From the NCBI GenBank assembly GCA_913020475.1, contig CAJVZM010000008.1:1-34268 (forward strand): a DNA stretch of 34,268 bases, given 5' to 3'. This document shows positions 9,141 through 32,966 of the stretch, piece after piece. Below the pieces are notes generated by a model that did not search any database, was not told where the DNA came from, and saw only the letters and a list, made by a program, of their open reading frames with translations. Within the stretch, counting starts at the first letter, position 1; each line of letters opens with the position of its first letter. The translations under genes were made by a program, and so were the position numbers. This DNA comes from an uncultured Flavobacteriaceae bacterium (GTDB taxonomy: Bacteria; Bacteroidota; Bacteroidia; Flavobacteriales; Flavobacteriaceae).

Positions 9141-9156
9141 TTAATTTAAACGGGCT
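8911..9156 (-). pseudogene. Start-less open frame, possible gene remnant
   Basis: Reading the minus strand downstream of the sulfatase stop, one frame stays open for 81 codons to TAA at 8911. It translates to a Lys/Arg-rich, helical-looking sequence (for example KSERIIRRNIKRAIGNLRNL and a KILSWAENKENILLIIEAVL stretch). There is no ATG, and the frame overlaps the last bases of the sulfatase gene. It may be the C-terminal remnant of a deleted gene, or chance. I do not recognise a family. Confidence 0.25.
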
Positions 9157-10571: not shown

Positions 10572-10682
10572 GTTTTTGTTTTTTTATATTTTTTTAAATT
10601 TAGTTATTAATAAATAGACGTTAACCTTACATCAAAAAAGTTTTATGTGATTATAGTGTTTTGGCAACAAAAACAAATACCT

Positions 10683-12230: not shown

Positions 12231-12250
12231 ATTGGTATCTTAAAACGCTA

Positions 12251-15169: not shown

Positions 15170-15906
15170 ACACAAAAGATATAGGCAAATCCGGCCAAAG
15201 CCCCTCCTGCCATTGGAGCCAAGATGGGGATCCAAGCATAAGGCCAGTCAGCGTCTTTATTTTTTCTGGGTAACATTTGATACATTAATCTAGGGCCAAA
15301 ATCCCGCGCAGGGTTTATGGCGTAGCCAGTTGTTCCCCCCAATGCCATACCGATTACCCAGACCAAAATAGCTACAGGTAGTGCTTGTATGGCTCCCAGA
15401 CCAAAATTGTCCACAACTACACCTTCAATTTCTATATTTGGAACTGCTATAAACAGCACACCAAAAACCAAAACAAAAGTGCCGACAAATTCACTAAAAA
15501 AATTATTCTTAAAGTTCCTGATGGCAGGCCCAGTAAAAAAAGTACTGCGCACTACACCTTCGTCCTCAGTAAGACGATAGTGGTCAATGTAGGTAAGGTA
15601 ACACGCCCAAGCACCAAACATGGCACCCAAAATCTGGGCTATAACATAACCTGGAACTAACGTCCAAGAAAATTTTCCTGCAACTGCAAGCCCCAATGTT
15701 ACCGCAGGATTGAGATGTGCTCCACTGAATTGACCCGAAATAAAAACACCGACAAAAACAGCAAATCCCCATGCACTAGTGATTAGTACCCAAGGGCTTT
15801 GCCCCTCGGCAATAGTGTTTTTAAGTGTCACATTAGCAACTACTCCAGTACCCAACAACAGAAGGAAAAAAGTGCCAATAAATTCTGCGATATAAGGATC
15901 AATCAT
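15166..15906 (-). CDS. glpF: Glycerol facilitator (aquaglyceroporin)
   Basis: The 246-residue membrane protein has six hydrophobic segments and the two half-helix motifs of the family: HLNPAVT with NPA at 66-68 and INPARDFGPR with NPA at 198-200. The Asp after the second motif (Asp202) and the following Arg205 are the signature of glycerol-conducting members rather than water-only aquaporins. It passively admits glycerol, which GlpK then traps. Its start overlaps the end of glpD by 4 bases (ATGA-type arrangement), so it is the last gene of the minus-strand operon symporter-glpK-glpD-glpF. Confidence 0.95.
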   Translation of the reverse strand: MIDPYIAEFIGTFFLLLLGTGVVANVTLKNTIAEGQSPWVLITSAWGFAVFVGVFISGQFSGAHLNPAVTLGLAVAGKFSWTLVPGYVIAQILGAMFGAWACYLTYIDHYRLTEDEGVVRSTFFTGPAIRNFKNNFFSEFVGTFVLVFGVLFIAVPNIEIEGVVVDNFGLGAIQALPVAILVWVIGMALGGTTGYAINPARDFGPRLMYQMLPRKNKDADWPYAWIPILAPMAGGALAGFAYIFCV

Positions 15907-18933: not shown

Positions 18934-18949
18934 AAAAATAATTTTATTA

Positions 18950-20602
18950 TTATCCAGTAAAATACAATAAAACAGACACCACCAAACCGATGAGGATCAG
19001 AGACAAAATCAAATCAGCTCTGTTGAAAGAATTTTGATATTCTTCTTTCATATCTGGCGTCATGGTTCCAAAAGATAAACCTTTGATTCTGGCATAATCT
19101 GGACGAGCCGAAAGCAGACTAACACCTACACATACAAATATTGAAAAGATAAACATAAATATTGCCATGTGGGCAAAATTGATAGTGGCAAAAGTAAAAG
19201 CTATCCCAGAGATGCTCTCCCCAGAAAGGATTTCTTCTTGAAAATAAATCTCACTTCCCAATCTCGATATAAGCAAGATCAATCCACTAAATAGTGTGGC
19301 AATCGCTGCATCAGAAGTCATCCTTTTCCAAAGTATTCCCAAAAGAAAAACAGCAGTAACTGGTGGAGCAATATATGACTGAACGTTTTGAAGGTACTGA
19401 TACATGACCCCTCCTCCAATTTTATCCATAATAGGTATCCACATTATTCCCATTATTACAATGATGGTAGTGGCAATTTTACCGATATTAATGAGAGATT
19501 TTTCTGACTTTTCTGGTCTAATTTTTTTGTAAATGTCTATAGTGAAAATAGTGGAACACGAATTAAAAACCGAAGCCAAAGAACTCATCAAAGCAGCCAT
19601 CAATCCACCAGCAACCAATCCTTTCAGTCCAACAGGCAAAAGGGTTTTTACTAACATAGGAAAAGCACGATCCGCTCTTTCTATGACAAAAACATCAGGT
19701 TGTTGAAGTGTCAAGGCAAAAGCAATAATTCCAGGTACAAGGAAAATTAAAATAGGTAATAATTTCAAATAAGCCCCAAAAATGGCTCCTCTGCGGGCAA
19801 TGGTGATATTATTGGCCGCCAAAGTTCGTTGAACAATATATTGATCAGTACACCAATACCAAATCCCAACAATGGTCCCACCAATCAGCAATCCCGTCCA
19901 AGGAAAATTAGGATCAGTTATGGGTCTCCACATATTGAAATGATCAGGACTTACTGCAGTAACTGTTTCTCGCAACTTTCCCCATCCACCGACTTCCTTT
20001 AGTCCTAGTACGGTAATGACTACAGAACCAAAAATAAGAACAATAGTTTGAAGCGTTTCCGTGTAAATGACCGCTTTCAATCCACCAATGACGGTATAGA
20101 CACCCGTAAAGGCAACAATCCCTATGGCTCCATACCAAAAGGGAATTCCAAGCAATTCAGATACTACAATACCTCCGGCATAAATAGTAATGGACACTTT
20201 AGTCAATACATAGGCCAGCAATGAAAAAACAGAGAGAAACCAACGAGAACGGCTGTCAAATCTCTTTTCTAAAAACTCGGGAGTGGTGAATGCTCCACTT
20301 CTAATGTAGAATGGGAGAAACAACCAACCTAACAATAAGACAATCCATGCATGAAGTTCGTAGTGCGCCATCGGCGTTCCCGTTTCAAAACCAGTGCCTG
20401 CCAATCCCACCACGTGTTCAGAACCTATATTAGATGCGAAAATGGAGGCTCCAATGACGAACCAACCCACATTTCGTCCTGCCAAGAAATAATCTTCTGT
20501 ATTTTTATTTTTTTGAATAAAAACCCAAACTGCAACACCGATAAGTGCAAAAAAATAAATACCCAAAACGATCCAGTCCAACTCTTGGAGTACTGATGTC
20601 AT
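18950..20602 (-). CDS. Sodium:solute symporter (SSS family), SGLT-like
   Basis: The protein has about 550 residues and some 13-14 hydrophobic segments. I place the start at ATG 20602 (MTSVLQELDW), because the ATG at 20647 adds a hydrophobic stretch of fifteen residues not typical of the family. The SSS pattern is clear: EDYFLAGRNVGWFVIGASIFASNIGSEH near the N-terminus, then GGLKAVIYTETLQ in the middle. The SNIGSEHVVGLAG form resembles sugar (SGLT-like) branches. It imports a solute with sodium. It is first in the operon with glpK-glpD-glpF, so the substrate could be a glycerol-containing compound such as a glycosylglycerol, or a sugar; this is inference. The 242 bases upstream are shared with the divergent fucose operon. 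Confidence 0.88.
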   Translation of the reverse strand: MTSVLQELDWIVLGIYFFALIGVAVWVFIQKNKNTEDYFLAGRNVGWFVIGASIFASNIGSEHVVGLAGTGFETGTPMAHYELHAWIVLLLGWLFLPFYIRSGAFTTPEFLEKRFDSRSRWFLSVFSLLAYVLTKVSITIYAGGIVVSELLGIPFWYGAIGIVAFTGVYTVIGGLKAVIYTETLQTIVLIFGSVVITVLGLKEVGGWGKLRETVTAVSPDHFNMWRPITDPNFPWTGLLIGGTIVGIWYWCTDQYIVQRTLAANNITIARRGAIFGAYLKLLPILIFLVPGIIAFALTLQQPDVFVIERADRAFPMLVKTLLPVGLKGLVAGGLMAALMSSLASVFNSCSTIFTIDIYKKIRPEKSEKSLINIGKIATTIIVIMGIMWIPIMDKIGGGVMYQYLQNVQSYIAPPVTAVFLLGILWKRMTSDAAIATLFSGLILLISRLGSEIYFQEEILSGESISGIAFTFATINFAHMAIFMFIFSIFVCVGVSLLSARPDYARIKGLSFGTMTPDMKEEYQNSFNRADLILSLILIGLVVSVLLYFTG

Positions 20603-20844
20603 GATCAACCCTATTAACCTAATTCTTAAAAGATACAATATAATCAAATCTGAACGCTATTTTATACTTTTTTTGAGTTGACAAACCCAATCTTAGTTCA
20701 ATCTTGACTTTTCAAAATAGAATACCATATTCCGTTCATAAAATTTGATTATTCACCAAAATAATTCATAATTAAATCAATTGACACGAATAAAAATTAT
20801 ATTCAATCCCCACTTAAAAAATTTATATATTTAAAAAAAAAACC
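20603..20844. promoter_or_regulatory. Divergent control region between the glp operon and the fucose operon
   Basis: This is the only gene-free stretch ahead of both the symporter-glp operon (minus strand) and the 12-gene fucose operon (plus strand), so it must contain both promoters unless transcription comes from elsewhere. It is strongly AT-rich. I looked for TAnnTTTG on both strands and found only imperfect forms (for example TAAAATTTG near 20739), so no promoter is called. No hairpin or known riboswitch pattern is visible. Confidence 0.4.
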
Positions 20845-22194
20845 ATGTATCAATTATCTAGAAGATCATTCTTAAAATCTACCACCACGGCTTCAACTGG
20901 GTTACTTTTTATTCCAGACTTTCTAAAAAACGCCCCAACTAATCGGCTCAACGTTGCCGTAATAGGTGTTGGGGGAAGAGGGAAGGCGAATTGGAGTAAG
21001 GTTCCCAATGAAAATATTGTAGCACTATGTGATGTTGATGATAACAGAGCTTCCTCGGGATTTAAAATGTTCCCAAAAGCCAAAAAATTTAAAGACTTCA
21101 GAGTCATGTTCGATCAAATGGCCAAAGAAATTGATGCCGTAATAATTACCACTCCAGACCATACTCATTTTGCGGCTACAATGATCGCTATGGAACTGGG
21201 TATGCATGTCTATGTAGAAAAGCCATTGGCGCACAATATTTGGCAGCTTAGAACTCTGAAAAAAGCTGCTAAATACTACAATGTGGTTTCTCAAATGGGA
21301 AATCAAGGCCATACTACCAATGGTATACGTTTGATCAAAGAGTGGTATGAGCAAGGAATATTGGGAGAAGTTACAGAAGTTCATGCTTGGCATGGTGCCT
21401 TTAATTATGGACCCGGAAAATACTTTACAAAACCGGAAAGTTTTCCACCTCCTGTTCATCCCATACCTGACTATTTGGATTGGGATCTTTGGTTGGGTCC
21501 AGCCAAATATCGGTCGTTTAACTCTGCATATGCTCCAAAATCATGGAGAGGTTTTTATGACTTTGGAAATGGACAATTGGGTGACTGGTCGTGTCATACC
21601 CTCGACGGACCATTTTGGTCACTAGATTTAGGAATGCCTCATACCGTTCAAGCTACTGTTCCCAACCCTAGAACAAAACACGGTTTTATTGCTGATCAAT
21701 CGGTAACCCATTATGAGTTTGGCGCGAGGGGCAATAAACCTCCTGTGACACTGAAATGGTATGAGGGAGGAGAAAAACCAGCAATCAGACCTGAATGGGG
21801 TATTGAGAAATTTGATCGCTCGGGAATGATTATGATTGGTGATAAGAAAACATTGTTAACTGGTGGAAGACCCAATAAACCTCAACTTTTGGTCTCTGAC
21901 GAGGAGTGGAAAGCTTTCCAAGAAAATCCACCTGAAAGAACAATTCCAAGGGTACATGAAGAAGGTCCTGTACAAGAGTGGGTAGATGCCATCAAAGAAA
22001 ACAGCTTACCTGGTTCCCATTTTGGTTATGCCGCCGAACTAACAGAAATGGCATTGATCGGGGTACTAGCGCAAAGATTTGCTGCTAAAATCAAATATGA
22101 CGCTGAAAAGATGAAAGTAACCAATCGGCCCGATATCGATGCTTTGATTAAAGAACCCGTAAGAAATGGATGGTCTTACGGTGAAAATCTTTAA
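20845..22194 (+). CDS. Tat-exported Gfo/Idh/MocA family protein (oxidoreductase or GH109-like)
   Basis: The protein has 449 residues. A twin-arginine signal (RRSFLK at 6-11, then a hydrophobic stretch) indicates export in folded, cofactor-loaded form. The Rossmann loop GVGGRG is at 41-46 and the family signature EKPL at 125-128 (HVYVEKPLAHN), followed by QMGNQGHT and the C-terminal beta domain of the family. Such proteins bind NAD(P); some Tat-exported members are NAD-dependent glycosidases (GH109) that work by transient oxidation, others are dehydrogenases. As first gene of the fucose operon it likely acts on a sugar of the target polysaccharide in the periplasm. The exact reaction is unknown. 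Confidence 0.9.
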   Translation: MYQLSRRSFLKSTTTASTGLLFIPDFLKNAPTNRLNVAVIGVGGRGKANWSKVPNENIVALCDVDDNRASSGFKMFPKAKKFKDFRVMFDQMAKEIDAVIITTPDHTHFAATMIAMELGMHVYVEKPLAHNIWQLRTLKKAAKYYNVVSQMGNQGHTTNGIRLIKEWYEQGILGEVTEVHAWHGAFNYGPGKYFTKPESFPPPVHPIPDYLDWDLWLGPAKYRSFNSAYAPKSWRGFYDFGNGQLGDWSCHTLDGPFWSLDLGMPHTVQATVPNPRTKHGFIADQSVTHYEFGARGNKPPVTLKWYEGGEKPAIRPEWGIEKFDRSGMIMIGDKKTLLTGGRPNKPQLLVSDEEWKAFQENPPERTIPRVHEEGPVQEWVDAIKENSLPGSHFGYAAELTEMALIGVLAQRFAAKIKYDAEKMKVTNRPDIDALIKEPVRNGWSYGENL

Positions 22195-22212
22195 GGCATA
22201 AACCACTGATAA

Positions 22213-22770
22213 ATGAAACAGTTTTTGTTTTTTTTTATGCTATCCTCTTTGGCTATGGCCCAAACTGAAATGCAATCATATAGTGTAATTCAAAAGATTT
22301 CGGGTGCTGAAATACGGTTTTATCCCCCTGTGATGATGGCTAAGTACACCTCCAAAAATGAGGGATCAGGCTTTGGAAAACTCTTTGGATACATCTCCGG
22401 AAACAACACCAACAATTCCAAAATTGCCATGACTACTCCTGTTCATATGGAAAAAAAAACAGGAGAAAATTCTATGGCCTTCGTACTGCCCAAAACATTT
22501 ACGGACGTCAATACCCCCCAGCCTAATGACAGTTCGCTTAGTGTTTTTGAAGATAGAGGAGGATACTTTGCCGCCATAAGATATTCGGGATATACTAATA
22601 CGTCTAAAGAAAAAGAATACACCAAGATACTTCAGAAGTTGCTCCAAAAAGAAAATATAGCTGCCTCAGGTTCCCCTAAAATTCTGGTTTACAACAGTCC
22701 GTATAAGATCATCAACCGAAGAAATGAAATATTAATTCCCATTTCTTTAAAAGTTGAAAAAAATGACTGA
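22213..22770 (+). CDS. SOUL-family haem-binding protein, exported
   Basis: The protein has 185 residues with a signal peptide (cut near AMAQ). The mature part follows the SOUL/HEBP pattern: YSVIQKISGAEIRFYPPVMMAKY, FGKLFGYISGNN, KIAMTTPVHME, MAFVLPKTF and a closing IINRRNEILIPI. SOUL proteins bind haem or related tetrapyrroles with low specificity; bacterial roles are poorly known. It lies 18 bases after the Gfo/Idh gene, and its stop overlaps the start of the fuconate dehydratase gene by 8 bases, so it is a fixed member of the operon rather than a stray insertion. Why a haem-binding protein belongs in a fucose operon is unclear. Confidence 0.88.
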   Translation: MKQFLFFFMLSSLAMAQTEMQSYSVIQKISGAEIRFYPPVMMAKYTSKNEGSGFGKLFGYISGNNTNNSKIAMTTPVHMEKKTGENSMAFVLPKTFTDVNTPQPNDSSLSVFEDRGGYFAAIRYSGYTNTSKEKEYTKILQKLLQKENIAASGSPKILVYNSPYKIINRRNEILIPISLKVEKND

Positions 22771-24085
22771 TTTAAAAATTACTGCAATAAAGACCAAAGA
22801 CATCCGCTTCCCTACCAGTGAAAATTTAGATGGATCGGATGCTATGAACCCTGACCCTGACTATTCCGCAGCCTATGTAATTTTAAAAACAGATCACCCC
22901 GACGGATTAGAAGGTCATGGACTGACATTTACTATTGGTCGAGGCAACGAACTTTGTGAACAGGCCATTCAATCCCTATCATACCTATTGATCGGAAAAT
23001 CTTTAGGGAGCTTTACTCAGAATATGGGACAATTTTGGACAATGATGACAGGAGACAGCCAACTCCGGTGGCTTGGGCCAGAAAAAGGAGTGATTCATAT
23101 GGCTACAGGGGCATTGGTCAATGCAGTATGGGATTTGTATGCCAAAATTAAAAAAAAGCCCCTATGGCAATTGGTAGCAGACATGAGTCCAGAAGAATTG
23201 GTCGAATGTATTGATTTTACTTACATTACCGACGCCCTAAATAAGCAGGAGGCACTGCAAATCCTTAAAGAAAAAGAAAAAGGGAAGGAAGCCCGCATAA
23301 CCCATCTGAAGAAAAATGGATACCCTGCCTACACTACTTCGGCGGGATGGTTGGGTTATTCCGATGAGAAAATAAGAAGACTATGTCGAGAGGCAAAAGC
23401 AGATGGCTTTACTCACATCAAAATGAAAGTAGGATCTGACCTACAAGACGACATTAGAAGAAGTAAAATCATTCGTGAAGAAATTGGATACAATATTAAA
23501 TTAATGATGGATGCCAATCAGAAATGGGATGTTGATGAGGCCATAGAAAACATGAAGCAGTTGTCGAAATTCCGACCTTGGTGGATTGAAGAGCCTACTT
23601 CTCCAGACGACGTCTTGGGGCATGCCAAGATTGCACGAGCCGTTAAACCAATTCATGTAGCCACTGGAGAACACTGTCAAAATCGGGTCATGTTCAAGCA
23701 ACTGATGCAATCCAATGCTATAGGTATATGTCAAATTGATAGTTGTAGAGTGGGGGGCGTTAATGAAATACTGGCCATATTGTTATTGGCTACAAAGTTT
23801 AATATACCTGTTTGTCCTCATGCAGGAGGGGTTGGACTTTGCGAATACGTTCAACATTTGTCCATGATCGATTATCTCTGTATTAGTGGATCTATGGAAA
23901 ATCGAATGATTGAATATGTAGATCACCTCCATGAACATTTTGAAGATCCCGTGGTCATTGAAAATGGAAAATATGTGGCCCCTTCTCTTCCTGGTTATAG
24001 TATCGAAATGAAAAAAGAATCTTTGGAATCATATGATTTCAATAATGGATCCATTTGGAAAATGAGAAAAAAACGACTATTGTAA
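22763..24085 (+). CDS. fucD: L-fuconate dehydratase (enolase superfamily)
   Basis: I take ATG 22763 as start (440 residues); an upstream TTG at 22754 is less likely. The enolase-superfamily catalytic set is present: the KxK pair in HIKMKVG (Lys220 and Lys222), metal ligands Asp250 (MMDANQKWD), Glu276 (WWIEEP) and Glu303 (TGEHC), and catalytic His353 (CPHAGG). Spacing and the long N-terminal part match characterised L-fuconate dehydratases. The enzyme removes water from L-fuconate to give 2-keto-3-deoxy-L-fuconate in the cytoplasm. Its start overlaps the SOUL stop by 8 bases, and the next gene begins 1 base after its stop. The related rhamnonate or galactonate dehydratases are less likely given the fucosidase and FucP in the same operon. 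Confidence 0.93.
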   Translation: MTDLKITAIKTKDIRFPTSENLDGSDAMNPDPDYSAAYVILKTDHPDGLEGHGLTFTIGRGNELCEQAIQSLSYLLIGKSLGSFTQNMGQFWTMMTGDSQLRWLGPEKGVIHMATGALVNAVWDLYAKIKKKPLWQLVADMSPEELVECIDFTYITDALNKQEALQILKEKEKGKEARITHLKKNGYPAYTTSAGWLGYSDEKIRRLCREAKADGFTHIKMKVGSDLQDDIRRSKIIREEIGYNIKLMMDANQKWDVDEAIENMKQLSKFRPWWIEEPTSPDDVLGHAKIARAVKPIHVATGEHCQNRVMFKQLMQSNAIGICQIDSCRVGGVNEILAILLLATKFNIPVCPHAGGVGLCEYVQHLSMIDYLCISGSMENRMIEYVDHLHEHFEDPVVIENGKYVAPSLPGYSIEMKKESLESYDFNNGSIWKMRKKRLL

Positions 24086-24086
24086 A

Positions 24087-25226
24087 ATGAAAAACAAAGG
24101 ATTCTTGTTATTGGTTCTTGTCTCACTGAGTTTTTCATTACCCCCCAACAGTGAAATATACCAAGCCCTAGAAAAAGCCCCTTTATTTGAAAAACAAATG
24201 CTTTTTGAGGGTGAGCGATTTCCCAATGTGATAGTGAGTACAGATGGAACTGTCGTATCAACTTGGGGTCAAAAAAATTGTGTGAGTCGCAGATCGATAG
24301 ATGGAGGAGATACTTGGCAGCCTGTAGTAAAAATTGATCAGGGCATCAATGGAGGCGGCCTTATGGTGAACGAAAACAATGGTCAAATCATAACCTTTGT
24401 AGAGAAAGGTGAGCACCCCCCTGCTCCAATTCTACCCTACTTCAGCAGTGATCAGGGTCAATCTTGGCAAACCAAAAAAATAAAAATCCATCCCGATAAA
24501 AATGGTAACCTTCCCTCAATGCACATGAATGAGCACGGTATAACACTAAAAGCAGGGCAATACAAAGGGAGACTGCTCCGGACCACAAGGTATTACGGAC
24601 AAGGGAATGATCGAGAGTATTGGCCCAGTCATTACACTAACGCCATTTACAGTGATGACGGAGGAAAAACTTGGCATACAAGTAATCCTTTCCCTGCCAA
24701 TGGAACGGGCGAGGCAGCTGTTGTTGAATTGAACGATGGATCTCTTTATTACAACACCCGAAGACACCTATCTACCGACGGGCTAAATCCTAGAATGCGA
24801 CACATTGCCAGCAGTATAGACGGAGGAAACCATTGGAAAAACCTCTATGTCAGTAAAGTATTACCTGACGGAGAACAAAATCGAGATTATGGCTTGATGG
24901 CTGGATTGGATCGTCTTCCCTTCAAAGGTTACGATCTTTTAATTTTTAGTAATGTTGATTCATTCAGCGGTCGTAAAAATGGTACCGTATGGTTAAGTTT
25001 TGATGGCGGAAAATCCTGGCCAATCAAGAAAGTTGTTGAGGAAGCGGGATTCAAATATTCCTCTTTGGCAGTCGGAAGAAAAAACACTTCTAGTGAAGGA
25101 TACATATATTTGTTATACGAAACAGGAACAAATGACGACATTCATGCATATGGAGGTGGTATAATGGTACGATTTAATTTGTCTTGGTTAATGAAGGGAA
25201 AAGACATCAATGAATTTTTAAAATAA
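24087..25226 (+). CDS. Secreted Asp-box beta-propeller (sialidase-like) protein
   Basis: The protein has 379 residues with a signal peptide (ending near SFSLPP). At least five Asp-box motifs (S-x-D-x-G-x-x-W type) mark the blades: SIDGGDTW, SSDQGQSW, SDDGGKTW, SIDGGNHW and SFDGGKSW. RFPNVIV near the N-terminus stands where true sialidases have the R-I-P motif with the first catalytic Arg, and GTGEAAVVELNDGSLYYNTR carries a likely catalytic Glu and an Arg. The fold is that of GH33-like enzymes, but sialic acid is an unlikely target in a fucose operon. It may hydrolyse another sugar of the polysaccharide. Fold confident; substrate unknown. Confidence 0.85.
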   Translation: MKNKGFLLLVLVSLSFSLPPNSEIYQALEKAPLFEKQMLFEGERFPNVIVSTDGTVVSTWGQKNCVSRRSIDGGDTWQPVVKIDQGINGGGLMVNENNGQIITFVEKGEHPPAPILPYFSSDQGQSWQTKKIKIHPDKNGNLPSMHMNEHGITLKAGQYKGRLLRTTRYYGQGNDREYWPSHYTNAIYSDDGGKTWHTSNPFPANGTGEAAVVELNDGSLYYNTRRHLSTDGLNPRMRHIASSIDGGNHWKNLYVSKVLPDGEQNRDYGLMAGLDRLPFKGYDLLIFSNVDSFSGRKNGTVWLSFDGGKSWPIKKVVEEAGFKYSSLAVGRKNTSSEGYIYLLYETGTNDDIHAYGGGIMVRFNLSWLMKGKDINEFLK

Positions 25227-25230
25227 CCTC

Positions 25231-25977
25231 ATGAAGTTTGATTTAAGTGGAAAAAAAGCGGTGGTTACTGGAGGAAGTAGTGGCATAGGAAAATCCATAG
25301 CAGAGACCTTGAAAAAACAGGGAGCTCAAGTATTCATCGTCGATTTAAATGAAAATCCATCTCATGAAAAAGTAGGAATACATACCATTTTAGCCGACAT
25401 CACTCAAGCGGACGAACTCAAAAGCTCATTGGAACCCTTATCCAACAATATTGATATTTTGATAAACAATGCTGGAATTGGTTTTGTGGGTAACATCGAA
25501 CAAACTGAAGAAAAAGATTTTGATAGGTTGTATCAAGTCAATGTCAAAGGAGTCTTCAACTGTATAAAAGCCATTCTGCCCAGCATGAAAAAAAATGGTG
25601 GTGTTATCATTAATATAGCTTCCATCGTTTCTCATATTGCTGTCAAAGAGCGATTGGCCTACACCATGACCAAGGGAGCAGTTTTAGCCATGACCAATGC
25701 CATCGCCAAGGATTATATCTCTGATGGGATCCGTTGCAACAGCGTCTCCCCTGCCAGAGTCCACACCTCATTTGTAGACAATTACATAGAAAAAAATTAC
25801 CCAGGCAAGGAAAAAGAAATGTTTGATAACCTTTCTCAAACTCAGCCCATTGGAAGAATGGCTAAACCACAAGAGGTAGCAGATTTAGTTTTATACCTCT
25901 GTAGTGATGAAGCGGCATTCATTACCGGAACAGACTTCCCTATAGATGGGGGATTTATAAAACTTAATGGAAATTAA
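25231..25977 (+). CDS. SDR dehydrogenase, probable 2-keto-3-deoxy-L-fuconate dehydrogenase
   Basis: This 248-residue classical short-chain dehydrogenase has TGGSSGIG at 13-20 (NAD(P) loop), NNAG at 79-82, catalytic Ser near 131-134, and YTMTK (Tyr144, Lys148). The Asp after the second strand (IVDLN) suggests a preference for NAD. In the oxidative fucose route the step after fuconate dehydratase is oxidation of 2-keto-3-deoxy-L-fuconate to the 2,4-diketo acid, which the next gene's FAH-fold product would cleave. Gene order (dehydratase, propeller, this SDR, hydrolase) supports that assignment over L-fucose dehydrogenase, for which the later SDR is the better match. The specific reaction is inference. 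Confidence 0.85.
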   Translation: MKFDLSGKKAVVTGGSSGIGKSIAETLKKQGAQVFIVDLNENPSHEKVGIHTILADITQADELKSSLEPLSNNIDILINNAGIGFVGNIEQTEEKDFDRLYQVNVKGVFNCIKAILPSMKKNGGVIINIASIVSHIAVKERLAYTMTKGAVLAMTNAIAKDYISDGIRCNSVSPARVHTSFVDNYIEKNYPGKEKEMFDNLSQTQPIGRMAKPQEVADLVLYLCSDEAAFITGTDFPIDGGFIKLNGN

Positions 25978-25985
25978 AATTAAGT

Positions 25986-26834
25986 ATGAAACTCATTAGA
26001 TTTGGAAATTTCGAAAATGAAAAACCCGCTGTTCAATTGGACAACGGTCAAAGGATAGATGTTTCAGCCTTTGATTCGGATTATGACGAAAAGTTTTTTG
26101 GTACAGAGGGACCCAAAAGACTCAAAGATTGGCTTTCCCACCATCAAGACGAATGCCCACTAATAAATGATAACATTCGATTGGGATCTCCCATTTGTAG
26201 GCCCTCAAAAATCGTCTGTGTAGGACTAAATTACACCAAACACGCCCAAGAAAGCGGTATGGAAGTTCCCAACGAACCCGTTCTGTTTTTCAAAGCAAGC
26301 TCCGCTATAGTGGGACCATATGATGAGGTTATCTTGCCCAAAAACAGTAAAAAATCGGACTGGGAAGTGGAACTGGCAGTTGTCATTGGTGCCAAAGCAA
26401 GTTATGTAAGTGAGAAAAATGCCATGAATCATGTGGCAGGATATGTTTTACACAATGACATTAGCGAAAGAGAATATCAGTTGGAAAGAGAGGGACAATG
26501 GGTCAAAGGAAAAAGCTGTGATACTTTCGCTCCGTTGGGTCCATTTGTAGCCACCTCAGATGAGATTGAAAATCCTCACAATCTGCATTTATGGCTTAAA
26601 CTCAATGGCAAAACCATGCAGGATAGCAATACTTCGGATTTGATCTTTGGGATTCCCAAACTGATTAGTTACATCAGTGAATTTATGACCCTACTTCCCG
26701 GAGATGTCATCTCCACAGGCACTCCCTTTGGAGTAGGTCTTGGCTTGGATCCACAATTGTATCTGAAAGGGGGAGACGAGATGGAATTGGGCATTGATGG
26801 ATTGGGGGTTGCCCGTCAAAAAGTAAGAACATAA
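25986..26834 (+). CDS. Fumarylacetoacetate hydrolase-family enzyme, probable 2,4-diketo-3-deoxy-L-fuconate hydrolase
   Basis: The 282-residue protein has the FAH-fold motifs: VGLNYTKHA, the metal-binding Glu pair in DWEVELAVVIG, NDISEREYQ, KSCDTFAPLGP, and GDVISTGTPFGVG. These enzymes use a divalent metal to cleave C-C bonds next to a ketone. In the non-phosphorylating fucose route the substrate is 2,4-diketo-3-deoxy-L-fuconate and the products are pyruvate and L-lactate. It follows the SDR by 8 bases. Family very firm; substrate by context. Confidence 0.9.
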   Translation: MKLIRFGNFENEKPAVQLDNGQRIDVSAFDSDYDEKFFGTEGPKRLKDWLSHHQDECPLINDNIRLGSPICRPSKIVCVGLNYTKHAQESGMEVPNEPVLFFKASSAIVGPYDEVILPKNSKKSDWEVELAVVIGAKASYVSEKNAMNHVAGYVLHNDISEREYQLEREGQWVKGKSCDTFAPLGPFVATSDEIENPHNLHLWLKLNGKTMQDSNTSDLIFGIPKLISYISEFMTLLPGDVISTGTPFGVGLGLDPQLYLKGGDEMELGIDGLGVARQKVRT

Positions 26835-26849
26835 CCATCAAAGATTAAA

Positions 26850-28250
26850 ATGAAGCCCTACACAAAAATAATTCTCGGTATATTCATTTTGCTAATGACC
26901 TTTAACTGGTCTTGTCAAAATGCTCCAAAAGAAAAAAAAAATAAGCCTGTAGATTTTCTGAATGAGTCAAAAGAAGATTTTGATAAACGAATGAAATGGT
27001 GGAGAGAGGCCCGTTTTGGAATGTTTATCCATTGGGGCATTTATGCCGTTCCCGCTGGGATCCATAACGGATTTGAAACAAAAAGTGTGGGCGAATGGAT
27101 TCAACTTTTTGCTAAAATCCCCATTTCAGAATACGAAGAGTATGCCAAAAAGTTCAATCCCATAAAGTACGATGCTGAGGAATGGGTAAAACTCATGAAA
27201 AAGGCAGGCATGAAATACGTAGTTATCACTTCCAAACACCACGACGGTTTTGCGCTCTGGGACTCCAAAGTATCAGAATATGACGTAGTAGATTTTGCAC
27301 CCTATGGTAAAGACATTTTAAAATCGTTGGCGGCAGCCTGTAAAGCTCAAGGCATCAAGTTTGGTTTGTACCACTCGATTATGGATTGGCATCATCCACA
27401 AGCACAAGCCAATAGTGAACCAGAATACGATTACCAAAACCACCCCAATACTGAATTCCCCCAATTCGTTGAAAATTATCTGAAACCACAAATCAAAGAA
27501 TTGGTCGATAATTACGATCCGGATATTTTGTGGTTTGACGGTGAATGGATAAATGATTTTACCCACGAAATGGGTTTGGATATATATCAATTTGTGAGAA
27601 CCTTAAAGCCTAGTCTCATAATCAACAATCGAGTTGATAAAGGAAGAAAAGGAATGGCAGGAATGAATCGGGATGATCAGAAATACGCTGGAGATTTCGG
27701 AACCCCCGAGCAAGAAATTCTCGAAGGTACCTCAACCATGGATTGGGAATCTTGTATGACCATGAATGATACTTGGGGTTTCAAGTCTCTTGACCTCAAC
27801 TGGAAATCTGACAAAATTTTGATTCAAAATTTGGTGGATATTACCGCCAAGGGAGGCAACTATCTTTTGAACGTAGGTCCTACTGCAGAGGGATTGATCC
27901 CTGCAGCTAGTGTAGAACGATTAGAAAAAATGGGGAAATGGCTTGAGGTCAACGGAGAAGCCATCTATGCAACTCAAAAACTGGAAAAAGTTTTCAAACA
28001 AGGGGAAGGTATTCGTTTTACCAAAAAGAAAAACAAGCCGGATTATTACGTAATTACATTTAAACAACCTCATAAGGAATTGGTCATTCACCATATCCAA
28101 CCAGATGAAAAAAGCAGCATTCAACTCCTGGGTTATGATAAACCGTTGAAATGGACTTTTGATCTAAAAAAAAGCTTGATCATTCAAATTCCAGAGAGCA
28201 TACCTGGGGAGATAGCTTGGACTTTTAAAATCAAAGGAAAAGAAATTTAA
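26850..28250 (+). CDS. Alpha-L-fucosidase, GH29, lipoprotein
   Basis: The protein has 466 residues with a lipoprotein signal (TFNWSC, Cys22), so it is periplasmic or surface-anchored. GH29 motifs: RFGMFIHWGIYAVPAG (55-70), TSKHHDGFALWDS with substrate-binding His130 and His131, and DILWFDGEW with nucleophile Asp230. The C-terminal part after about 375 is a beta-sandwich as in other members. It removes terminal alpha-L-fucose with retention. Its place inside the fucose catabolic operon, 15 bases after the FAH gene, makes it the source of the free fucose taken up by FucP. Confidence 0.95.
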   Translation: MKPYTKIILGIFILLMTFNWSCQNAPKEKKNKPVDFLNESKEDFDKRMKWWREARFGMFIHWGIYAVPAGIHNGFETKSVGEWIQLFAKIPISEYEEYAKKFNPIKYDAEEWVKLMKKAGMKYVVITSKHHDGFALWDSKVSEYDVVDFAPYGKDILKSLAAACKAQGIKFGLYHSIMDWHHPQAQANSEPEYDYQNHPNTEFPQFVENYLKPQIKELVDNYDPDILWFDGEWINDFTHEMGLDIYQFVRTLKPSLIINNRVDKGRKGMAGMNRDDQKYAGDFGTPEQEILEGTSTMDWESCMTMNDTWGFKSLDLNWKSDKILIQNLVDITAKGGNYLLNVGPTAEGLIPAASVERLEKMGKWLEVNGEAIYATQKLEKVFKQGEGIRFTKKKNKPDYYVITFKQPHKELVIHHIQPDEKSSIQLLGYDKPLKWTFDLKKSLIIQIPESIPGEIAWTFKIKGKEI

Positions 28251-28258
28251 TAAACCAG

Positions 28259-29083
28259 ATGAGAATTGATTCTCACCAACATTTTTGGCAGTTCGATCCC
28301 GTCCGTGATTCATGGATTGATTCCTCTATGCAGAAAATTGCCAAAGATTTTCTACCCCGAGACATAAAGCCACTTCTCGAAAAAAGCCAAATGGAGGGTT
28401 GTGTTGCTGTTCAGGCAGACCAATCAGAAGTCGAAACTCAATTTCTTCTTAAATTGGCCGATAAAAATCCTTTTATTAAAGGCGTAGTAGGTTGGGTCGA
28501 TTTGTGTGCCGATGACCTTTCAGAGCGCCTTGAATTTTTCTCAAAAAATCCGATATTTAAAGGAGTCAGACATATACTTCAAGCAGAAAAAGAGGGTTTT
28601 ATGTTGCAAGATTCATTTTTAGGTGGAATTCGCCTGTTAAAAGATTTTAAACTGACTTACGACATCCTGATCTATCCGCATCAGCTAGAAGAGTCGATTG
28701 CATTGGTTGATATGAATCCAGACCAGCCTTTTGTATTGGATCATCTCGCTAAGCCATACATCAAAGATCAAAAAATCGAGGAATGGGCATCCAATATCAA
28801 AAAGTTGGCAAACCATAAAAATGTTTATTGTAAATTGTCAGGAATTATAACTGAGGCGGACTGGAGCCATTGGCAAGCCAAAGATTTTGACAAATACCTT
28901 TCAGAAGCTTTGGAGGCTTTCGGTACCGATCGATTGATGTTTGGGTCAGATTGGCCAGTTTGCTTATTGGCAGGCAGCTATCAACATGTTGTCAAAATTG
29001 TTGAGCTATTTTTAAAGGAACTCAAGCCTATTGATCAAAACAAAATAATGGGGGAAAACGCGCGCAATTTTTACAGCCTTTAA
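28259..29083 (+). CDS. Amidohydrolase-family L-fuconolactonase
   Basis: The 274-residue protein is of the amidohydrolase-2 type: metal motif HQH at 6-8 (MRIDSHQHFWQF), KGVRHILQ, VLDHLAKP in the middle and FGSDWPV (metal Asp) near the end. This pattern is that of the L-fucono-/L-rhamnono-lactonase group (cog3618-like). It opens L-fucono-1,5- or 1,4-lactone to L-fuconate, the step between fucose dehydrogenase (next gene, 2 bases away) and fuconate dehydratase. No signal peptide, so cytoplasmic. Confidence 0.9.
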   Translation: MRIDSHQHFWQFDPVRDSWIDSSMQKIAKDFLPRDIKPLLEKSQMEGCVAVQADQSEVETQFLLKLADKNPFIKGVVGWVDLCADDLSERLEFFSKNPIFKGVRHILQAEKEGFMLQDSFLGGIRLLKDFKLTYDILIYPHQLEESIALVDMNPDQPFVLDHLAKPYIKDQKIEEWASNIKKLANHKNVYCKLSGIITEADWSHWQAKDFDKYLSEALEAFGTDRLMFGSDWPVCLLAGSYQHVVKIVELFLKELKPIDQNKIMGENARNFYSL

Positions 29084-29085
29084 AG

Positions 29086-29877
29086 ATGAATCTATTACTC
29101 CAAGACAAGGTCGTTATTGTAACAGGGGGCTCAAAAGGAATTGGCCATGCCATTACTCATGTATTGGCAGCTGAAGGAGCTATTCCCTTCATTGTAAGCA
29201 GGAATGAAAAGAGCATACTGGAAACGGTTGAAGAAATCAAGAAAAAAGGAGGCAAATGTGCATATGCATTAGCAGAATTGACGGACCCAAAACAAGCACA
29301 AGAGGCAGTTAATAATGCTATTTCTGAATTTGGAACAGTTCATGGCTTGGTCAATAATGCCGGAGTCAATGATGGTGTAGGACTTGAAAATGGTGATGCA
29401 GAGCAATTTATAAATTCTCTCAAAAAAAATCTCGTCCATTACTTTGTAATGGCACAGGCTTGCTTACCCTATCTAAAAGAAAATAAGGGAGCTATAGTCA
29501 ATATTGGTTCAAAGGTCTCTGTCACTGGTCAAGGTAGAACCTCAGCCTATGCTGCAGCTTGTGGAGGTAGAAATGCACTTACACGCGAATGGGCGGTAGA
29601 ATTGCTTCCTCACTCTGTAAGAGTAAATACTATAATGGTAGCTGAAAGCTTAACTCCACTTTATAAAAAATGGATTAACACTTTTGCTAATCCCGAAGAA
29701 AAACTAAATCAAATCACTAATAAAATCCCTTTAGAAAAAAGAATGACCACGCCAGAAGAAATTGCCAACACGGTAGTTTTCTTAATGTCTGAAAAATCCA
29801 GCCATACCACTGGCCAATTGTTGTATGTAGATGGTGGCTATGTGCATTTAGATAGATCATTAAACACATTATCATGA
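29086..29877 (+). CDS. SDR dehydrogenase, probable L-fucose dehydrogenase, lacking the usual catalytic Lys
   Basis: The 263-residue short-chain dehydrogenase has TGGSKGIG at 13-20, NNAG at 90-93, Ser142 and Tyr155 at the normal 13-residue spacing. However, the usual Y-x3-K reads YAAAC, with Cys159 (codon 29560-29562) in place of the catalytic Lys. The following GGRNALTREWAVELL matches L-fucose dehydrogenase-like SDRs, some of which I recall as having a non-Lys residue here. It would oxidise L-fucose to the lactone with NAD(P). Position between the lactonase and fucP supports this. It overlaps fucP by 4 bases. Confidence 0.82.
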   Translation: MNLLLQDKVVIVTGGSKGIGHAITHVLAAEGAIPFIVSRNEKSILETVEEIKKKGGKCAYALAELTDPKQAQEAVNNAISEFGTVHGLVNNAGVNDGVGLENGDAEQFINSLKKNLVHYFVMAQACLPYLKENKGAIVNIGSKVSVTGQGRTSAYAAACGGRNALTREWAVELLPHSVRVNTIMVAESLTPLYKKWINTFANPEEKLNQITNKIPLEKRMTTPEEIANTVVFLMSEKSSHTTGQLLYVDGGYVHLDRSLNTLS

Positions 29878-31163
29878 AAAAACCCGTTGTATCAAAAGAA
29901 ATCTTATTGCCCTTTATCCTTGTAACCTCGTTATTTGCACTTTGGGGTTTTGCAAATGCGGTAACAGATCCCATGGTTCAAGCTTTTAAAAAAGTACTTG
30001 AATTATCCAATTCACAAGCAGCTTGGGTACAAATGGCATTTTACGGAGGCTATTTTTGCATGGCTCTGCCAGCAGCATTGTTTGTAAGGAAATATTCCTA
30101 CAAGGTAGGAGTGCTAATTGGTTTACTCCTTTATGCCAGCGGTTCACTACTTTTTTATCCTGCCGCGATTACAGAACAGTTTTGGTTCTTCTGTCTGGGA
30201 TTGTACATACTCACCTTTGGTTTGGCTTTCCTGGAAACCACTGCTAATCCCTATATTTTGGCTATGGGTGATCGTTCCACCGCTACACAGCGGCTCAATC
30301 TCGCTCAAGCTTTTAATCCATTGGGTCTTATTCTTGGCCTTCTGGTCGCCCAACAATTTGTTTTAAAAAAACTACAATCCGACAACATTGCGGATTTCAG
30401 TACCCTCGATACTGCCAAAAAGATAATGATCCGAACTGCTGATCTGATGGTCATTCGCGATCCCTACGTCATTTTGGGATTGGTTGTAATAGGAGTATTT
30501 GTCTTAATCGCTTTATCTAAGATGCCTCAGGCCAAAGACGATGGAGAAATGGCTCCGCTTAGTGAAACATTTAAAAGTCTTTTTCAAAATGTAAATTATC
30601 GGAACGGTGTCATATCTCAAGTGCTTTATGTTGGGGCTCAAATAATGTGTTGGACTTATATCTATCAGTACGCTGAGGCCATTGGTATTTCGAGTGAAAA
30701 TGCGGCCAATTATCAATTCATTTGTTTCATTGTTTTCCTGATTGGAAGGGCCATCGGCACCTACCTACTGAGATATATCAATTCCGGAAAACTCCTTCTC
30801 CAATTTGCTTTAATGGCAGGAATATGTGTTTTGGGAACCGTTTTTATAGAGGGAATTGCAGGTCTTTACGCACTAGTTGGTATTTCCTTTTTTATGTCGT
30901 TAATGTTCCCTACCATATATGGAATAGCACTTGAAGACTTGGACGAAAAAGAATCGAAGATTGGAGCTGCCGGTTTGGTAATGGCTATTGTTGGAGGCGC
31001 ACTTATGCCCAAGCTACAGGGAATGGTCATCGATCTGGGTGGAAGCGGGGTAAGTGATACGCAAATCTTGGGGGTACCAGAAGTCAATTTTTCTTTTCTA
31101 CTTCCTTTGTTGTGTTTTATGTTCATTGCTTATTACGGTAATAACGTAGCCAATCAATCCTAA
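29874..31163 (+). CDS. fucP: L-fucose:proton symporter
   Basis: The 429-residue major facilitator protein has about 12 membrane helices and strong resemblance to FucP: LFALWGFANAVTDPMVQAF at the start (the region with the conserved Asp and Asn), then FLETTANPYILAMGD and RLNLAQAFNPLG in the fourth and fifth helices. FucP brings L-fucose into the cytoplasm with a proton. The 4-base overlap with the upstream dehydrogenase and the mutarotase gene 1 base downstream fit that role. It could also carry other related 6-deoxy or galacto sugars. Confidence 0.93.
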   Translation: MKKPVVSKEILLPFILVTSLFALWGFANAVTDPMVQAFKKVLELSNSQAAWVQMAFYGGYFCMALPAALFVRKYSYKVGVLIGLLLYASGSLLFYPAAITEQFWFFCLGLYILTFGLAFLETTANPYILAMGDRSTATQRLNLAQAFNPLGLILGLLVAQQFVLKKLQSDNIADFSTLDTAKKIMIRTADLMVIRDPYVILGLVVIGVFVLIALSKMPQAKDDGEMAPLSETFKSLFQNVNYRNGVISQVLYVGAQIMCWTYIYQYAEAIGISSENAANYQFICFIVFLIGRAIGTYLLRYINSGKLLLQFALMAGICVLGTVFIEGIAGLYALVGISFFMSLMFPTIYGIALEDLDEKESKIGAAGLVMAIVGGALMPKLQGMVIDLGGSGVSDTQILGVPEVNFSFLLPLLCFMFIAYYGNNVANQS

Positions 31164-31164
31164 A

Positions 31165-31503
31165 ATGAAGAGATATTGTCTGGCCTTGGATCTTGTCAAC
31201 GACCCATTGTTGATTGACCAATACATCGAACACCACAAAGCAGTTTGGCCGGAAATCATTGAAAGCATAAAAGATAGTGGGATTCACGATATGCAAATTT
31301 TCCATGTTGCAGACCGACTTTTTATGATCATAGAAGTTGAAGAGGGTTTCAGATTTGAAAAGAAAAATAAAATGGATCGTCACAATCCATATGTCATCAA
31401 ATGGGAAGAAATTATGTCAACCTATCAAAAAAAAATACCCAACGCTAATCCCGGTGAAAAATGGCTTCTGATGAAAAAAGTTTTTGATCTTAAAATCCAA
31501 TAA
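31165..31503 (+). CDS. L-fucose/L-rhamnose mutarotase family protein (RhaM-like)
   Basis: The 112-residue protein has the RhaM/DUF718-type pattern: MKRYCLALDL, EHHKAVWPEI with a likely catalytic His, SGIHDMQIFHVADRLFMIIEVE and a closing EKWLLMKKVFDL. These small dimeric enzymes speed interconversion of alpha and beta anomers of 6-deoxy sugars. In this operon the substrate is most probably L-fucose, delivered by FucP and presented to the dehydrogenase in the correct anomeric form. It is unrelated to the FucU fold used by enterobacteria. Confidence 0.9.
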   Translation: MKRYCLALDLVNDPLLIDQYIEHHKAVWPEIIESIKDSGIHDMQIFHVADRLFMIIEVEEGFRFEKKNKMDRHNPYVIKWEEIMSTYQKKIPNANPGEKWLLMKKVFDLKIQ

Positions 31504-31505
31504 AG

Positions 31506-32966
31506 ATGATTCGACTGCTTGTTGTTTTACTATCCACCCTTTTTATTGCTTGTAATTCATCTTCTCCTAAAGCACCTGTGGACAACTTGCCAAATATTCT
31601 ATTTTTGTTTGCAGATGACTATATCTTTGATGCTATTCACGCTTTAGGAAACGATGTTATCCAAACTCCCAACCTAGATCGATTGGTTCGCAATGGCACC
31701 CATTTTAGTCAAGCCTTTAATATGGGAGGGTGGAATGGAGCTGTATGTGTGGCTTCAAGGGCAATGATCATCAGTGGTCAAAGCATTTGGAATGCTAAGG
31801 CAATCAGCGATCAATGGCACAATAAAAAAAAAATTGAGGCTTCACAGGAAAGTTGGGGTAAATTGTTAGAACAAAAAGGCTATCAAACCTACATGACAGG
31901 AAAATGGCATTTACCCATTGATCCCAATAAGATTTTTCAGACCGTGCGTCATATCCGTCCTGGTATGCCCGGAGATTTTTTTGGAAAAGGAGATGAAAAG
32001 GGTTATCATCGTCCTATTGAGGGGGAAAAAGACCAATGGAATCCTGCCGATTCCCTAAATGGTGGATTCTGGCAAGGAGGGAAACATTGGAGTGAAGTAA
32101 TCAAAGATGATGCCTTGGACTTTTTAAATCAGTCCAAAGAAAAAAAAGGTCCATTTTTTATGTATCTAGCTTTCAATGCGCCCCATGACCCAAGACAGTC
32201 TCCCCAATCTTTTTTGGATCTTTATCCTTTAGAAAAAATATCGCTTCCTGAAAACTGGCTTTCCAAATATCCTTACAAAGATGCAATAGGAAACCCCAAA
32301 ACCCTAAGAGATGAAGCTTTGGCTCCCTTTCCAAGAACTCCATTTGCCATCAAAACACATATCAAAGAATACTATGCCATCATATCTCATTTGGATGAGC
32401 AAATTGGGAAAATTTTAGACTCATTGGAGGCCTCAGGCAAGGCCAACAACACCTATATCTTTTTTACTGGTGATCACGGCTTGTCGCTGGGAAAACACGG
32501 TCTCTTGGGAAAACAAAGTATGTTTGATCACAGTGTTAGGGTGCCGTTAATTATGACTGGGCCGGACATTCCGAAAAGTAAAAGCATCAACCATGAAGTT
32601 TACTTACAGGACATCATGGCAACGAGTCTGGAATTGGGAAATGTTATACCTCCTCAAAACATTGAATTCAAAAGCTTTTTAAGTTTAGCCAAAGGAGAAA
32701 ACGATATTACTCCATATCCCAATGGTATCTATGGCGCATACATGGATTCACAACGAATGATTCGAAAAGATGGATTTAAGTTGATAGTTTACCCAAAAAT
32801 TAAAAAAATTCTTCTTTTTGATTTGAAAAATGACCCCTTAGAACAGCATAATATTTCTGGCCAAAATCAATACAAGGGTAAGGTCAAAAATCTTTTTGAA
32901 AATTTATTATTACTCCAACGAAAATATAGAGACAGTCTTGATTTATCGGATATTTTAGTATTGTAA
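31506..32966 (+). CDS. Sulfatase lipoprotein at the end of the fucose operon
   Basis: The 486-residue protein has a lipoprotein signal (LFIACN, Cys16). Motifs are LFADDY (35-40, metal Asp pair), CVASR at 81-85 with Cys81 as formylglycine precursor (Ala in place of the usual Pro, an accepted variant), GKWHLP, NAPHDPRQSP and FTGDHGLSLGKHGLLGKQ, the last typical of the iduronate-2-sulfatase/choline-sulfatase-like branch. Co-transcription with the fucosidase (2 bases after the mutarotase gene) suggests that it desulfates fucose or fucosides, for example at O2 or O3; the position is inference. Last gene of the 12-gene operon; no hairpin with a T-run follows. Confidence 0.92.
   Translation: MIRLLVVLLSTLFIACNSSSPKAPVDNLPNILFLFADDYIFDAIHALGNDVIQTPNLDRLVRNGTHFSQAFNMGGWNGAVCVASRAMIISGQSIWNAKAISDQWHNKKKIEASQESWGKLLEQKGYQTYMTGKWHLPIDPNKIFQTVRHIRPGMPGDFFGKGDEKGYHRPIEGEKDQWNPADSLNGGFWQGGKHWSEVIKDDALDFLNQSKEKKGPFFMYLAFNAPHDPRQSPQSFLDLYPLEKISLPENWLSKYPYKDAIGNPKTLRDEALAPFPRTPFAIKTHIKEYYAIISHLDEQIGKILDSLEASGKANNTYIFFTGDHGLSLGKHGLLGKQSMFDHSVRVPLIMTGPDIPKSKSINHEVYLQDIMATSLELGNVIPPQNIEFKSFLSLAKGENDITPYPNGIYGAYMDSQRMIRKDGFKLIVYPKIKKILLFDLKNDPLEQHNISGQNQYKGKVKNLFENLLLLQRKYRDSLDLSDILVL

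Follow-up and report, generated by a model that had tools for sequence, protein, structure and literature searches.

The DNA analysed here (the window, 34,268 nucleotides in full) comes from an uncultured member of the Flavobacteriaceae, probably a flavobacterium of marine habitat. The ORF list of the window places twelve genes, all on the plus strand, at positions 20845-32966. Pfam and NCBIfam assignments give the order Gfo/Idh, SOUL, FucD (MR_MLE), BNR, SDR1, FAH, GH29, amidohydrolase lactonase, SDR2 (L-fucose dehydrogenase), FucP, RhaM mutarotase and S1 sulfatase, with the following features.

20845..22194, plus strand: Gfo/Idh/MocA oxidoreductase with a Tat-type RRSFLK start, probably exported (Pfam; NCBIfam NF058561, 379.3 bits against a cut-off of 750; PDB 8tdf/8tdh)
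22213..22770, plus strand: SOUL (heme-binding family) protein with a signal-peptide-like N-terminus (Pfam PF04832, 130 bits; in the clade's fucose operon)
22754..24085, plus strand: L-fuconate dehydratase FucD, enolase superfamily, with an alternative ATG start at 22763 (PDB 1yey, E 1.7e-172)
24087..25226, plus strand: BNR sialidase-fold protein, probably exported; it retains the triad R44/R225/R296 along with Y324/E209 and lacks the acid/base Asp loop (Pfam, alignments, predicted structure)
25231..25977, plus strand: SDR1, probable L-2-keto-3-deoxyfuconate 4-dehydrogenase (PDB 8xwk/8y4j/8y11, E about 1e-43; adjoins FucD/FAH in relatives)
25986..26834, plus strand: FAH-fold hydrolase, probable L-2,4-diketo-3-deoxyfuconate hydrolase (NCBIfam NF053535, 335.5 bits, cut-off 500; PDB 8gsr, E 9.3e-74)
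26850..28250, plus strand: GH29 alpha-L-fucosidase with a lipoprotein-type N-terminus (Pfam PF01120, 331.4 bits, cut-off 25.2; PDB 6gn6, E 1.4e-81)
28259..29083, plus strand: probable L-fucono-1,5-lactonase, amidohydrolase (NCBIfam NF052480, 278.6 bits, cut-off 400)
29086..29877, plus strand: SDR2, L-fucose dehydrogenase (NCBIfam NF052481, 395.6 bits, above the cut-off of 300)
29874..31163, plus strand: FucP L-fucose:H+ symporter (TIGR00885, 522.2 bits, above the cut-off of 280.4)
31165..31503, plus strand: RhaM-family mutarotase, probably for L-fucose (Pfam PF05336, 102.7 bits)
31506..32966, plus strand: S1 sulfatase with a lipoprotein-type N-terminus and the formylglycine-type motif CVASRAMIISG (Pfam PF00884, 164.9 bits; motif read from the sequence)

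Successive genes are separated by +18, -17, +1, +4, +8, +15, +8, +2, -4, +1 and +2 bases, and the overlap of SOUL with fucD is 8 bases if fucD starts at the ATG at 22763 instead of the TTG at 22754. The tight spacing of twelve plus-strand genes given in a preliminary description of the locus is thus confirmed, with distances between neighbours from -17 to +18 bases. The eight families and the sulfatase named there agree with Pfam and NCBIfam, and names can now be added for Gfo/Idh, SOUL and BNR. There is no regulator gene among the twelve. Gene spacing and conserved order suggest that the genes form an operon and are co-transcribed. A scan with E. coli-type patterns, which do not extend to Bacteroidota promoters, found 36 promoter-like sites (38.2 +/- 5.4 in shuffled sequences) and 15 terminator-like sites (11.7 +/- 3.6), and speaks neither for nor against an operon. 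Export signals were judged by eye from the N-termini, and the home genome (G000) is 80% complete, which makes gene absences provisional.

We consider it quite probable that the locus serves a flavobacterium with a small genome as a fucose-scavenging operon, combining exported trimming, import by FucP and oxidative catabolism. The GH29 fucosidase, S1 sulfatase and BNR protein, all probably exported, would trim fucose from those parts of decorated glycans that are short or terminal, and FucP would carry the free L-fucose over the inner membrane. There, the RhaM-type mutarotase would equilibrate the sugar, SDR2 would oxidise it to L-fuconolactone, the lactonase would open the ring to give L-fuconate and FucD would dehydrate this acid to L-2-keto-3-deoxyfuconate. 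SDR1 would then oxidise the latter at C4, yielding a product that the FAH protein would cleave to pyruvate and L-lactate.

Enzyme family membership is plain for these proteins, and their substrates are predicted with varying firmness. FucD is close to the L-fuconate dehydratase 1yey (577 bits, gap-free over residues 9-435) and scores only 78.8 bits with the L-rhamnonate dehydratase model, from which we predict its activity. This similarity, together with L-fucose dehydrogenase and FucP scores above their NCBIfam cut-offs, supports the oxidative route to pyruvate and L-lactate that had been proposed. The best PDB match of SDR1 is 4dqx, a 'probable oxidoreductase' (1.5e-45), followed in second rank by the structures 8xwk, 8y4j and 8y11, which the available text of PMC11199699 identifies as L-KDFDH, and none of the specific NCBIfam models passes its cut-off. 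For the FAH protein and the lactonase, the best NCBIfam models are the expected ones at scores below the curated cut-offs, and so neighbouring sugar acids are possible substrates. These scores tell against the scavenging reading, as does a route for L-lactate that shows in a search for LUD domains only as weak matches in 7 of 11 genomes.

The expectation that the route runs without fucose isomerase also held: none of 10 clade genomes has the gene, and the same search of 14 control genomes matched two, E. coli and Thermotoga maritima, with one match above cut-off. The FGGY kinase encoded in the window is a glycerol kinase. The operon had been called complete, which is true of the full set for the non-phosphorylating L-fucose route, whereas Gfo/Idh, SOUL and BNR have no step in this pathway.

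The sugar pathway itself is well known. Comparison of gene order places all seven core genes together in 26 of the 68 named fucD loci whose downstream sequence extends over 9.5 kb or more, which is not chance, and because this core recurs in Flavobacteriia the pathway must be regarded as ordinary. Among 80 named fucD loci, FAH occurs in 75, SDR1 in 74, SDR2 in 42, the lactonase in 40, FucP in 37 and RhaM in 32. The form seen in the window, with SOUL and BNR flanking fucD, occurs in 8 of the 80 (L001-L008).

Genomes of the clade measure 1.7-2.2 Mb and differ in their dehydratase. One of the same genus (G257, 91% complete) keeps the other eleven genes and has a fucD ortholog neither in the operon nor elsewhere, which counts against the scavenging reading. 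Another (G020) likewise lacks a fucD ortholog, and its relatives of FAH and lactonase lie on contigs apart from its GH29-FucDH-FucP-RhaM genes; here, an altronate-dehydratase-family enzyme adjoins SDR-FAH-lactonase. A gene of this family is present in 10 of 11 clade genomes, and since its neighbours are alike in the nine genomes with retrieved surroundings, G020 excepted, this gene is not established as a replacement for the fucD that G257 lacks. In G000, the one genome in which they were assigned by Pfam, these neighbours are mannitol-dehydrogenase-family, Gfo/Idh, cupin and AraC genes. The change of dehydratase among close relatives (FucD, none found in G257, altronate-dehydratase-family in G020) offers a small natural experiment in pathway evolution.

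The AlphaFold model of BNR (pLDDT 78.5, pTM 0.83) has a six-bladed sialidase fold, and its top structural matches are sialidases (Foldseek, VIA-align), with Z values of 35.0-35.6 and rmsd 2.4-2.5 over 308-314 residues for 1eur and GH33 sialidases. R44, R225, R296, Y324 and E209 are invariant in all 11 BNR members and align to residues of 1eur that we take to be the Arg triad and the nucleophile Tyr with its Glu. The acid/base Asp loop after the RIP motif is absent from all 11 and a D-containing loop is present in all 14 of the more distant flavobacterial relatives in the alignment. The members read RFPN or RMPN at the RIP position, with the arginine kept, and share an invariant HMNEHGI motif whose E149 position is Gly or Val in 14/14 aligned relatives. 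An ordinary GH33 sialidase was therefore rejected for want of the Asp loop, even though the fold and other residues fit. Sialic-acid catabolism in the home genome was likewise set aside, as a search for one nan gene family, NanM, found it in 0 of 11 clade genomes and only in G129. A literature search for GH33 with ulosonic acid in marine bacteria found nothing. BNR points to a subfamily of the sialidase fold in which the catalytic set is altered, tied by position to fucose scavenging and, through its nearest relative outside the clade, to a sialic-acid-type PUL.

The Tat-type Gfo/Idh, SOUL and BNR appear to be exported proteins that mark a small clade. Gfo/Idh is related to the BT_2158 glycoside 3-dehydrogenase family and scores below its equivalog cut-off (379.3 bits, cut-off 750). 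Their conserved position places Gfo/Idh and SOUL in one unit with the fucose genes, where they may tentatively be given a role outside the cytoplasm, in fucoside oxidation or in the handling of cofactors around fucosides. Because the position of His78 in the operon SOUL varies among 19 non-operon SOULs (Tyr in 12, His in 5, Ala in 1, Thr in 1), no heme ligand is claimed.

That Gfo/Idh, SOUL and BNR are passengers, functionally unconnected with fucose, deserves weight and is on balance unlikely. SOUL surroundings in other genomes (L176-L193, 14-20 kb each) contain homologs of FucD, FAH, lactonase, FucP, RhaM or GH29 in 0 of 18 cases, with no more than weak similarity to SDR, Gfo/Idh, sulfatase and symporter proteins, and non-operon SOUL loci have no common neighbour family (the sole one in at least 4 of 19 loci occurs in 5). 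The sialic-acid-type setting of the BNR relative and the absence of Gfo/Idh from L008 point the same way. However, 9/9 operons of this form (L001-L008 and G257) retain SOUL together with BNR, and in G020, which has SOUL and no close BNR, Gfo/Idh and SOUL stay beside GH29-FucDH-FucP-RhaM even where fucD is lacking. If the three proteins do act on fucose-bearing glycans, BNR might use a displaced acid/base, with E149 or H146 of HMNEHGI standing in for the lost Asp loop, to cleave a nonulosonic-acid or other alpha-keto-acid cap and expose fucose on capped sulfated phytoplankton glycans, with Gfo/Idh and SOUL as an extracytoplasmic redox pair on fucosides; this scheme is speculative and its odds are rather poor.

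The preliminary description went further, reading the locus as a compact unit that takes sulfated fucose of the fucoidan type from polymer to central metabolism. The GH29 and S1 sulfatase genes of the operon would suit such a unit, as would three more sulfatases in the window at 9141-13777. The formylglycine motif of the S1 sulfatase, CVASR, has Ala where Pro is usual. However, of the window's 42 ORFs of at least 90 aa, 29 were scanned with Pfam, which recognised neither SusC/SusD nor an endo-fucanase (GH107, GH168 or similar families) in them, and the home genome has just two SusD matches, on contigs C1 and C84, both away from the locus. Furthermore, one clade genome (G155, for which there is no completeness figure) retains the other eleven genes and has zero GH29 matches anywhere. 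The published NS5_D case is itself divided: in the parts available of PMC9122927, the legend of Fig. 7 labels the GH29/GH33/sulfatase locus 'alpha-fucan' and the discussion deems use of fucose-containing sulfated polysaccharides unlikely. Because neither SusC/SusD nor endo-enzymes were recognised, polymer use was dropped as the main reading, and it strikes us as improbable. Scavenging fits better, as published for NS5_D flavobacteria, and the locus suggests how streamlined flavobacteria may obtain fucose without fucoidan machinery.

It is very unlikely that the catabolic genes act on a different, configurationally related sugar (L-galactose, D-arabinose or L-rhamnose), besides or instead of L-fucose, since the RhaM family of the mutarotase, the best match of FAH to an L-rhamnonate-route diketo-acid hydrolase model, the further substrates accepted by L-KDFDH and the promiscuity of the altronate-dehydratase family (the latter from the title of a cited work; both in the available text of PMC11199699) are set against a FucD far closer to L-fuconate than to rhamnonate dehydratase, L-fucose dehydrogenase and FucP above fucose-specific cut-offs, and GH29 inside the same operon.

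With a fucose-scavenging operon as the preferred reading, several known systems can be compared. As far as the accessible text of PMC11199699 and PMC5507952 goes, Xanthomonas campestris, Herbaspirillum huttiense and Acidovorax avenae use the same five enzymatic steps and a mutarotase to reach pyruvate and L-lactate; the window differs by joining GH29, sulfatase, BNR, SOUL and Gfo/Idh in one operon without a regulator. The BNR protein shares its fold and the positions of the Arg triad, Tyr and Glu with the GH33 sialidase of Micromonospora viridifaciens (1eur), but differs in the acid/base Asp and its loop, in RFPN/RMPN and in HMNEHGI. A literature search for SOUL together with fucose in Bacteroid genomes found nothing. 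In Maribacter dokdonensis 62-1 (PMC8072126), the counterparts lie downstream of a large ulvan/fucoidan PUL with PL33/PL40 lyases and several sulfatases. Candidatus Indicimonas (AEGEAN169), an oligotrophic marine clade, has GH29 within a non-phosphorylating fucose operon, and its fucose use was inferred without polymer enzymes; this clade is alphaproteobacterial, and the accessible text of PMC11366302 does not mention SOUL, BNR or Gfo/Idh for the operon. The NS5_D flavobacteria (Candidatus Maricapacicella, 2.02 Mb) have several GH29, at least two sulfatases and a second marker locus from which the altronate-dehydratase cluster of G000 (Pfam) differs, and the main text of PMC9122927, so far as available, does not contain the word 'fuconate'. 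Membership of the clade in NS5_D was considered, since its genomes of 1.7-2.2 Mb suit the published 2.02 Mb, and was not adopted. Their conserved GH29/GH33/sulfatase set was read by its authors as scavenging of fucose groups, and the likeness, as a parallel only, is that of small-genome marine flavobacteria in which a fucosidase, a sialidase-family protein and a sulfatase occur together for scavenging.

The twelve plus-strand genes noted in the preliminary description are confirmed as ORFs that fill window positions 20845-32966, with intergenic gaps of -17 to +18 bases. The window (C8:1-34268) belongs to a genome of 1.5 Mb that is 80% complete, and it stops 1.3 kb past the last operon gene. 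Because the nearest named relatives are records of uncultured Flavobacteriaceae or Bacteroidetes, we infer the family and marine origin of the organism. The operon, with export signals read from the sequences by eye, and its neighbours are as follows.

14378-20647, glycerol block: GDPD phosphodiesterase, aquaporin-family channel, GlpD, GlpK and sodium:solute symporter
Symporter: neighbour of the fucose operon and divergent from it, with glycerol kinase, glycerol-3-phosphate dehydrogenase and the aquaporin-family channel next in order
20845-32966, plus strand, fucose operon: Gfo/Idh, SOUL, FucD, BNR, SDR1, FAH, GH29, lactonase, SDR2, FucP, RhaM and S1 sulfatase
Gfo/Idh protein, plus strand: apparent Tat-type start
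SOUL and BNR (24087-25226) proteins, plus strand: apparent signal peptides
GH29 and sulfatase, plus strand: apparent lipoprotein-type starts

Three further S1 sulfatases with CxPxR motifs lie upstream of the glycerol genes (9141-13777), giving four sulfatases in 34 kb. Two long ORFs of 549 and 814 amino acids (3692-5341 and 6220-8664), which had no match in a Pfam scan, lie close to genes for PorP/SprF (type IX secretion) and CHU_C.

The proposal that these genes encode an oxidative L-fucose route is supported. FucP and the L-fucose dehydrogenase score above curated NCBIfam cut-offs, and the dehydratase aligns with L-fuconate dehydratase 1yey at 577 bits (residues 9-435, gap-free) but reaches only 78.8 bits against an L-rhamnonate dehydratase model. 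SDR1 is near the solved structures 8xwk, 8y4j and 8y11, identified in PMC11199699 as L-KDF 4-dehydrogenase, although 4dqx, an unnamed oxidoreductase, ranks just ahead. The top NCBIfam models for the FAH-fold protein and the lactonase are the expected ones, but these assignments are probable rather than certain because the scores fall under the cut-offs. The mutarotase belongs to the RhaM family. Together, the assigned enzymes are predicted to convert L-fucose to pyruvate and L-lactate, and fucose isomerase was found in none of 10 clade genomes.

A dehydratase scan of named genomes yielded 276 relatives, of which the best 80 loci were analysed (presence meaning at least 40% identity, more than 40% coverage and the same strand; contig ends cut some loci). 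Most of these 80 contain FAH (75) and SDR1 (74), and fewer contain SDR2 (42), lactonase (40), FucP (37) and RhaM (32). Downstream sequence extends for 9.5 kb or more in 68 of the loci, 26 of which carry all seven core genes, including fucD, and therefore the core is a common flavobacterial unit.

A clade-specific form, in which fucD sits between the SOUL and BNR genes, was found in 8 of the same best 80 loci. These eight, L001-L008, all belong to genomes of uncultured bacteria, 1.7-2.2 Mb in size. Gfo/Idh is the first gene of the operon in every one except L008, and a symporter, GlpK or GlpD gene precedes it in every one except L002, which begins at the operon. GH29 lies within six, being absent from L004 and L007. 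A genome-wide search of G155, the source of L007, gave no GH29 match, and the genomes G149-G154 and G156 have 2-5 matches each.

Two congeners depart from this form. In G257 (91% complete), locus L175 (C2:96001-116000; site 8296-10049) keeps the other eleven genes and lacks fucD, with no ortholog elsewhere in the genome. In G020, whose fucose genes are split across contigs (L109, L107 and L108), no fucD ortholog was found; L109 holds Gfo/Idh-SOUL-GH29-FucDH-FucP-RhaM together, a second contig carries an altronate-dehydratase-family enzyme with SDR1, FAH and lactonase relatives, and a third carries FAH-lactonase-mutarotase. A reference title in PMC11199699 places the altronate-dehydratase family in L-fucose pathways. 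Separately, the window's own genome has a locus (L204, C17, 7738-12284) with altronate dehydratase, mannitol-dehydrogenase-family genes and another Gfo/Idh protein, which scores 434 bits, below the cut-off of 750, against the family of the BT_2158 glycoside 3-dehydrogenase.

Because the operons of G257 and G020 retain Gfo/Idh and SOUL without fucD, these two genes seem tied to the genes for fucose uptake and oxidation more firmly than fucD itself. However, 34 of 299 family genomes, many of the 34 being about 2 Mb or smaller, encode similar SOUL-like proteins, and of 18 such loci examined outside the genus, none has FucD, FAH, lactonase, FucP, RhaM or GH29 beside SOUL, which counts against a firm tie for SOUL.

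In a profile search, the BNR protein matched solved structures of the Micromonospora viridifaciens sialidase best (E 5.6e-32). An AlphaFold model built from 11 relatives (pLDDT 78.5, pTM 0.83) superimposes on this sialidase over 308-314 residues (rmsd 2.4-2.5, Z 35.0-35.6). Active-site positions were mapped by sequence alignment to the same enzyme. R44, R225, R296, E209 and Y324, which we take to be the arginine triad and nucleophile pair, are invariant in all 11 subfamily members, as is the HMNEHGI motif, whereas the acid/base Asp loop is absent from all 11. For contrast, proteins from 13 loci were taken out of the 27 more distant ones, L148-L174, together with two from L194; 14 of these proteins could be aligned and one L194 protein could not. 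All 14 keep a D-containing loop at the acid/base position and have Gly or Val at the E149 position; H146 recurs in one.

Some BNR match exists in 49 of 299 family genomes, with close ones only in G257 (67%) and G129 (58%). The latter, the nearest outside relative, lies in L194 (C13:54001-74000), which looks like a sialic-acid-type PUL: the gene has SusC, SusD, two further BNR genes, two DHDPS-family (NanA-type) genes, a GntR regulator and a NanM-symporter fusion around it, and PhyH is also present. NanM was not found in 11 clade genomes. We infer that the BNR protein might be a keto-acid-glycoside hydrolase that would uncap glycans for the fucosidase. Alternatively, it may have a binding role or be catalytically inactive.

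The further claim that the locus carries fucose from polymer to central metabolism was not borne out. No SusC or SusD was detected among the 29 of 42 window ORFs scanned by Pfam, and the two SusD matches in the genome are on C1 and C84, which argues for scavenging of fucose. Similarly, PMC9122927 interprets a locus that is conserved in NS5_D flavobacteria and combines GH29, GH33 and sulfatase genes as one for scavenging, and PMC11366302 considers direct polymer use unlikely for a GH29-bearing fucose operon of AEGEAN169.

No description of this operon form, or of the altered sialidase-fold protein and the two neighbours that accompany it, was found in the open-licence literature searched. The L-fucose route itself is already known, and the core unit is also noted for Maribacter in PMC8072126. 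The form of the operon, above all the altered sialidase-fold protein and its two neighbours, is a variant.
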